A DNA stretch of 33,403 nt. Origin: a virus. A program made the translations under genes and the position numbers. The DNA is taken from positions 1 through 33,403 of the IMG/VR virus record IMGVR_UViG_3300008267_000720, one strand, 5' to 3'. Positions 21,136 to 21,666 of this stretch are shown here, piece by piece; the first letter of the stretch is position 1; every line of letters starts with the position of its first letter. Under the pieces are notes generated by a model. It was not told where the DNA came from and ran no database searches. It was given only the letters and a program-made list of their open reading frames with translations.

Positions 21136-21158
21136 AAAAAAGTTTCCGGCTGGGAAAC
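21136..21158 (-). terminator. Intrinsic terminator reading leftward out of the control region
   Basis: On the minus strand, GTTTCC-cagcc-GGAAAC (complement 21142-21147 and 21153-21158) is followed directly by six U (complement 21136-21141). This is a compact rho-independent terminator. No protein-coding gene lies upstream of it on this strand, so it most likely ends a non-coding RNA and shields promoter D. Confidence 0.65.
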
Positions 21159-21666
21159 ACAGCGACCCGCACTTGCATCGGCAGCGCGGGTCGCTATTGT
21201 GTGCCTCGGCTGCGCTCACAGTCTCGGAAAGACGAGCGCCGCCGACATCGAACTGGCGGTCGCATTCTACCGCCTCATGCCGCCAGCGGCAAGATTGCAG
21301 CGTCAGCGTGCGCTCCGTCCACGCAGTCCGAGGGCGCGGCCACAGGCCGCTCCGACGCCGGGTCTGACCCTACCCGGCGCATCCTCCCCGGAGGATCGCT
21401 CCTGCATCGTGGTAGCGGCTGGCCCAGCGAAATGGTGAAAACGATGCCTTGGGAAACCTCGCGGCGGCTCCGAGCGGCTGCGCCTCCCCATGACCTCGCA
21501 CACACGGGGTCATGGTGTTCCTGCGGTCTCACCAAGCAACTGCGGAAACGCGCCGCAGGCGCGCCGAGCGCCCGAGCGCAGCGAGGGCAACATCCGGTCT
21601 GGTGGGAGTCGTTTGGCGTCCCCCGCCCCTCGCTGGGCCTCCAAAGTAGCCCGAGCGAGGCGGCGG
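21136..21666 (-). ncRNA. Candidate large structured non-coding RNA
   Basis: The segment has no plausible gene on either strand, while the rest of the genome is packed. On the minus strand it runs from a candidate promoter (21673-21701) to a U6 terminator. Stems by eye: 21628-21634 with 21654-21660, plus GGGC 21635-21638 with GCCC 21649-21652; 21549-21554 with 21558-21563; 21488-21497 with 21506-21515; 21381-21386 with 21391-21396; 21336-21341 with 21345-21350; 21255-21260 with 21269-21274; and a perfect 10-bp stem 21161-21170 with 21186-21195. It does not look like tmRNA or RNase P. It could also include the replication origin. Confidence 0.5.

Follow-up and report, generated by a model that had tools for sequence, protein, structure and literature searches.

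The window analyzed here, a virus record of 33,403 bases, contains a gap without genes at approximately positions 21031–21780, read from the sequence as lying between divergent genes, with a proposed minus-strand start codon at 21030 and a plus-strand ATG at 21781 forming its borders. A preliminary sequence-only reading had named a gene-free segment of about 530 nt at this site; the segment is real, and the gap exceeds the 531 nt that were named. Genes were called with a home-made program that yields false gaps. To the left lie minus-strand genes encoding Erf (17455–18261) and RusA (18341–19078), and to the right lie genes encoding terminase, portal, and MuF proteins. A tRNA/tmRNA search of the window with ARAGORN recognized neither kind. 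Cumulative GC skew hardly changes near the element; a local peak there (0.27, at 21–23 kb) is slight at most. A promoter-leader cassette was also observed at five sites in the window: 21747 (+), 21065 (−), 20389 (−), 15774 (−), and 15307 (−). Each cassette consists of a TTGnnn..TAnnGT promoter, a hairpin of varying stem with an A-Y-G-Y-C loop that is partly fixed by the search pattern (for example CGGGC-ATGTC-GCCCG), and then a Shine-Dalgarno sequence. Similar cassette hairpins occur in relatives, including L037 and L047, records in which the RNA described below was not found.

Seventy-three IMG/VR loci were found with the window's portal protein. Blastn with the middle of the gap gave matches in a subset of these loci, and the flanking proteins were mostly without a match. 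Homologues of the gap sequence were gathered by iterated nhmmer searches and by DNA patterns made from conserved words, the final pattern search returning no further members. The resulting 39 entries are all IMG/VR contigs and represent approximately 37 distinct sequences, the window's own included, since L081 and L070 derive from one contig, the cores of L114 and L108 are identical, and L072 runs off the end of its contig. R2, a covariance model made in the plus orientation from 30 homologues, produced 40 matches in 55 sources, 39 of which are strong (E 3.3e-16 or better) and include the 30 building sequences by construction; within the window the R2 match spans 21353–21523. Weak model matches in L103 (E 0.0028) and L088 (E 0.99) were not counted. 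Of 39 portal relatives examined as whole records, 22 scored for the RNA with the R1 model and 17 did not. Twelve of these 17, five of them 33–37 kb long and the others short fragments, were searched again with R2, which found none, and no clear substitute was seen in place of the RNA in records without it. The window's portal was not found in 16 RNA-bearing records (the divergent subclasses plus L085/L100), seven of which are at least 32 kb and the rest shorter; an empty portal search carries little weight. Named phages gave no blastn match for window positions 20900–21900 or for four divergent homologues, and searches of prokaryote genome contigs with one RNA pattern and for relatives of the portal both gave zero hits.

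The gap almost certainly encodes a structured RNA, judging from sequence comparison. This had been proposed in the sequence-only reading as a large structured noncoding RNA, and the proposal is borne out by the homologues, the absence of a conserved reading frame, and covariation. Across the body of the RNA, 19 of 37 homologues carry stops in all six frames, and the spacing of two fixed motifs covers every value modulo 3. A protein frame conserved in relatives, named beforehand as an observation that would count against an RNA, was looked for in the 37 homologues and none was found. The impression that the element resembles no named RNA class also held when the Rfam 15 covariance models were applied and gave no match above chance. 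None of 4227 families reached its gathering score in the window, two chance-level matches fell within the gap (E 3.4 and 4.2), and one (E 0.77) occurred among 19 homologue loci. By covariance model, the RNA belongs to neither of the large phage RNA classes GOLLD and ROOL: the GOLLD model gave no hit at gathering score in the window, none at E ≤ 5 in the gap, and none at E ≤ 1 in the 19 homologue loci, and the ROOL model had no match in the window, the gap, or the same loci. A literature search conducted largely at the level of titles and abstracts found no published description of the RNA at that level. A 2023 survey by Fremin and Kyrpides reportedly lists over ten thousand candidate structured RNAs from viruses and phages, and may already contain the motif.

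The RNA core, as delimited by nhmmer, the R1 and R2 covariance models, and folding, covers approximately 340 nt of the plus strand (21206–21545). Folding of plus-strand positions 21206–21550 beats shuffled sequences (z −2.15; 2 of 100 shuffles as good), and the many stems that had been noted are genuine, those with homologue support lying mostly within 21255–21515. The core opens with a 5′ hairpin, Hh (21206–21245), which is seen in the fold and the alignment and is missing from some homologues. It is followed by hairpin Hg (21255–21274; GGCGGT/ACCGCC), whose loop (21261–21268) would pair with 21292–21298 to form pseudoknot 2. By eye, six of the seven positions of pseudoknot 2 pair in the window, and across 30 sequences the loop/partner helix occurs in 22 distinct forms and the Hg stem in 18; these counts are approximate and lack a shuffle control, and Hg is implausibly assigned in a few sequences (e.g., L094, L143, L032, and L147). 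Pseudoknot 1 (21299–21324) is of the H-type, combining AGCG/CGCT with GCGTG/CACGC, and reaches at least 8 bp in 18 of 20 homologues vs. 31 of 200 shuffles. Hairpin He (21336–21350; GCGGCC/GGCCGC) was recognized by eye, the automatic count being misaligned. Hairpin Hd (21356–21379) has 7 bp, all seven of which change on both sides (94.1% paired), and a loop, TCTGACCCTA, with a near-invariant GACCCTA. In the adjacent hairpin Hc (21381–21396), 6/6 pairs change on both sides and 93.3% are paired.

A further domain (21404–21447) is closed by helix Ha (GCATCGT/ACGATGC) and contains an inner helix, Hb (21418–21428), together with the conserved sequence GAAATGGTGAAA; in the 30-sequence alignment, pairs change on both sides at 7/7 positions of Ha and 4/5 of Hb. 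Pseudoknot 3, formed by CGCT (21397–21400) and AGCG (21414–21417), crosses Ha and is 100% paired. One of its four pairs changes on both sides (in two sequences, one U-A and one G-C), one shows a U-A/U.G exchange (six U.G), and two are invariant. Altogether, the three pseudoknots are supported by these sequence comparisons. Downstream, the alignment contains a GG-GAAA-CC mini-hairpin with a GNRA-type loop (21451–21458), 86.2% paired and without covariation, and then hairpin P5b (21488–21515; CCATGACCTCG/CGGGGTCATGG), the chief helix for deciding the strand. A conserved 3′ segment seen in the alignments, CACCAAGCAACTGC (21530–21543), possibly marks the end of the core. At the right edge of the gap, folding and the flanks indicate a strong G+C-rich hairpin (21619–21670) that is a possible 3′ end without a U-run; the region 21545–21672 folds with z −2.55, and hairpins resembling this one are present, by eye, in part of the family. 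A kissing interaction between the Hd loop (UGACCC) and P5b (GGGUCA) was considered, the two being complementary in most sequences, and is not claimed since the changes in L052 and in L085/L100 appear by eye to be non-compensatory. A separate observation concerns window positions 21473 and 21535, the letter after GGCTCCG and one within CACCA(A/T)GC, which by eye carry the same letter (A with A, or T with T) in several homologues, a correspondence that is not base pairing.

Covariation was measured in two alignments. In a 21-sequence alignment in the minus orientation, two-sided changes affect 22 of 27 pairs, and the covariation score was reached by none of 500 shuffles. The 30-sequence alignment in the plus orientation (30 of 37 homologues) shows changes on both sides at 30 of 42 pairs, with 94.3% of cells pairing. 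Here too, 0/500 shuffles reach the observed covariation, the score being 0.51 vs. 0.06–0.10 for structures slid along the alignment, in which pairing drops to 37–45%. The strongest helices in this alignment are Hd, Hc, Ha, and Hb. These data bear directly on the idea that the gap is a DNA-level element, such as a packaging or regulatory site, in which structure is incidental. The location, a divergent control region with repeated promoter-leader cassettes, would suit such a site, but compensatory changes that extend to crossing helices are not expected of one, and this contradiction makes a purely DNA-level role highly improbable.

The strand from which the RNA is read was judged chiefly from wobble pairs. 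A minus-strand RNA would reverse an excess of G.U over A.C. Read as plus, alignment A2 contains 73 G.U vs. 20 A.C cells, although cells of related sequences are not independent; P5b alone accounts for 45 vs. 0, and the remainder for 28 vs. 20. A strand-neutral search that gave both wobbles equal weight found 56 G.U vs. 4 A.C in P5b, with a few sequences given a neighbouring stem instead. At two P5b pairs the exchanges are explicit (U.G with C-G, 21 and 8; G.U with A-U and G-C, 15, 7, and 4), and one Hb pair alternates between U-A, U.G, and C-G (11, 9, and 8). The earlier minus-orientation alignment, counted at fixed columns, gives 54 A.C vs. 30 G.U, which likewise favours plus. Blind stem finders run on alignments were noisy. 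Separate blind counts on the plus strand lean towards minus: 14 A.C vs. 3 G.U for Hg, 21 vs. 7 for pseudoknot 2, 18 vs. 4 for Hd (mostly at an outer position that also shows U or C opposite C), and 17 vs. 13 for Hb, with many stems misassigned. A further G.U vs. A.C count of four helices gave 32 vs. 9 for P5b, 10 vs. 14 for Hb, 39 vs. 34 for Ha, and 2 vs. 4 for Hd, the Ha and Hd stems being misassigned. Folding adds a second line of evidence, since the minus strand of 21206–21550 has a z-score of only −0.71 (27 of 100 shuffles as good) against −2.15 for plus. The absolute fold energy is lower on minus (−162.6 vs. −158.8 for plus), and RNAalifold energies do not separate the strands. Overall, the wobble counts and folding z-scores indicate that the RNA is probably read from the plus strand, and not from the minus strand as the sequence-only reading had held. 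We had also favoured minus at first, from the P0 hairpin and T-runs described below, and dropped it on covariation and wobble counts.

Features that would fit a minus-strand transcript are present at the left end of the gap. The terminator noted there, GTTTCC-cagcc-GGAAAC-TTTTTT, is present on the minus strand at 21158–21136, where both the sequence and a terminator scan place a hairpin with stem GTTTCC/GGAAAC followed by TTTTTT. Adjoining it is a longer dyad, GCGACCCGC/GCGGGTCGC at 21162–21194, 10 bp with flanking A/T, within the inverted repeat P0 (AGCGACCCGC..GCGGGTCGCT; 21161–21195), which is also seen in homologues. By eye, the P0 arms vary among homologues yet stay complementary, and the T-rich stretch lies on the minus side only. 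In a scan without a chance control, 22 of 37 homologues have minus-strand terminator-like hairpins on the upstream side of the RNA. This recurrence counts against the plus-strand reading and leaves room for a minus-strand role of the hairpin at 21158–21136; such hairpins may serve to stop antisense transcription. The same scan also returns plus-strand hairpins upstream and minus-strand hairpins downstream in some homologues. On the plus strand, again without a chance control, 6 of 37 homologues have a terminator-like hairpin from +150 onward, and in two of these it is P5b itself. The two most divergent homologues, L144 and L145, have a T-rich stretch directly after P5b that scores as a plus-strand terminator-like site.

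The minus-strand promoter proposed earlier, TTGAGG-17-TGCAAT, scores 8.0 bits, which is no better than chance, as 20–23% of shuffles equal it. On the plus strand, we propose TTGCAT-16-TATTGT (21173–21200) as a candidate promoter for the RNA, with transcription expected to start near 21207. It scores 9.8 bits, a value that 14–19% of shuffles reach and that is not significant alone, and the pattern TTGnnn/TAnnnT recurs near the same place in a number of homologues. Best matches in a promoter scan have p ≤ 0.05 in 9 of 37 homologues on plus and 2 of 37 on minus. Since the best positions are as clustered on minus as on plus (for either strand, a single 20-nt interval takes in 11 of 35 sequences and a pair of intervals 20 of 35), promoters support plus weakly. 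In a short subclass (L105, L123, L149, L108, L150, L107, and L147), chosen after the pattern was seen, all seven members carry TTGnnn-17/18-TAnnnT immediately ahead of the RNA (−117 to −126 relative to the Hd loop). The spacers have diverged, L105 and L123 being the exception. In 7/7 the top plus hit outscores the top minus hit, and in 3/7 the plus hit singly has p ≤ 0.05. A functional minus-strand RNA ending at the 21158–21136 terminator would accommodate that terminator, its recurrent counterparts, the apparent co-variation of the P0 arms, and the contrary blind counts of Hg, pseudoknot 2, Hd, and Hb. It is at odds with the G.U excess in P5b and overall, with the poor minus-strand fold, and with the short subclass, where the conserved RNA stops well short of the upstream hairpin and minus promoters score below plus throughout, and we regard it as quite unlikely.

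The genes that accompany the RNA vary. Elsewhere its neighbours include exonuclease VIII and Erf (L157), exonucleases (L159), RecT (L158 and L160), and DUF932 (L161), and recombination genes are likewise close to the RNA in records that gave no match to the window's portal. ORF family 30, defined by blastp clustering, is divergent from the RNA in the window and follows it in the same orientation in L101, L086, and L082. In L157, the plus-strand RNA is convergent with a minus-strand ORF called by the home-made program (8889–19988). In this phage record of 42.6 kb the ORF reaches 3699 codons or more, and its last 1499 codons give weak GNAT-like matches only, below Pfam cut-offs. The occurrence of family 30 on either side, the convergent ORF, and the varied neighbours indicate that the element behaves as an independent unit.

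This arrangement weighs on the proposal that the RNA is a cis-acting leader, the 5′ end of a plus-strand operon that it controls, for instance as a put-like antitermination element or an attenuator. The window and many relatives have a plus-strand gene after the RNA, making a leader role possible there; few terminator-like hairpins intervene, and in 11 of 20 listed contigs ORF family 9 starts less than 700 nt past the RNA. Family 9 has no Pfam or PHROG assignment above cut-off and looks by eye like a small regulator; its member in the window (22752–23024, plus strand) lies further from the RNA. Nevertheless, the downstream gene in the window has its own promoter, TTGCAC-16-TATAGT, and by eye TTGACA/TTGACC promoters directly follow the RNA in L038/L054. 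Downstream genes also differ, with family 30 found on either side, and the RNA in L157 is no leader since it faces the 11-kb ORF, so that a co-directional gene downstream is not a feature of every member. A leader function is thus unlikely. Structured RNAs beside phage promoters are represented by HK022 put RNA and other phage antitermination leaders; the present RNA also lies beside a proposed promoter, but it is far larger and pseudoknotted, and its L157 copy is not upstream of a co-directional gene.

Proximity to the recombination module suggests another role, in which the RNA or its R-loop would prime DNA synthesis like ColE1 RNA II or T4 origin transcripts. ColE1 RNA II-type pre-primers are several hundred structured nucleotides near DNA-metabolism genes, and the length and strong structure of the present RNA would suit a pre-primer. 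The likeness is confined to size and DNA-metabolism neighbours, an origin being hypothetical here, and the conserved pseudoknots and loops speak instead for an RNA product. An origin transcript therefore appears very unlikely.

We consider that the element is best explained as a stand-alone plus-strand noncoding RNA with its own promoter that acts in trans early in infection, a reading to which we assign a probability of roughly 0.58. Trans action and early timing are suggested by position and promoter type. Transcription would start from a sigma-70-like promoter belonging to the RNA, at the edge of the early recombination module, and yield a core of about 340 nt (21206–21545), perhaps extending to 21670. 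The product would contain at least six covarying helices joined by three pseudoknots, together with the GNRA-type hairpin and a conserved adenosine-rich internal loop. Such a compact, tertiary-folded RNA could bind a protein, another RNA, or itself in trans, and the binding would alter a host or phage process early in infection.

GOLLD and ROOL offer the closest setting for comparison. GOLLD is a phage and prophage RNA of more than 800 nt in many members, is often near tRNA genes, and, like ROOL, forms RNA-only cages, a 14-mer in GOLLD and an 8-mer in ROOL (PMC12286853). Compared with GOLLD, the present RNA is likewise large, structured, phage-borne, and unassigned in function, with a pseudoknot and a GAAA loop, but its core is only about 340 nt and the window, the one record scanned, contains no tRNA. 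With ROOL it shares being a large phage or prophage RNA of unassigned function. By analogy, the RNA may work in a similar setting, cage formation being hypothetical here. More tentatively, and with less than even confidence, we speculate that it represents a new class of pseudoknotted phage RNA machine, common to lineages apparently without a shared portal, which would fold by itself into a rigid particle or a ribonucleoprotein and aid early host takeover. Only a small number of large structured RNAs of the GOLLD and ROOL kind have been described in phages, with no settled purpose, and a further family provides a comparative handle, this one being smaller, better bounded, without a covariance-model match, and carried by phages of differing gene content. 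With three pseudoknots and loops that scarcely vary, it is well suited to probing and cryo-EM. A minor observation concerns the sequence that follows the RNA, where a G+C-rich hairpin, GCAGGGGTGCGGGGGGCGCAGCCCCCTGC or a close variant, occurs in L105, L123, L147, and L027, which belong to different subclasses.
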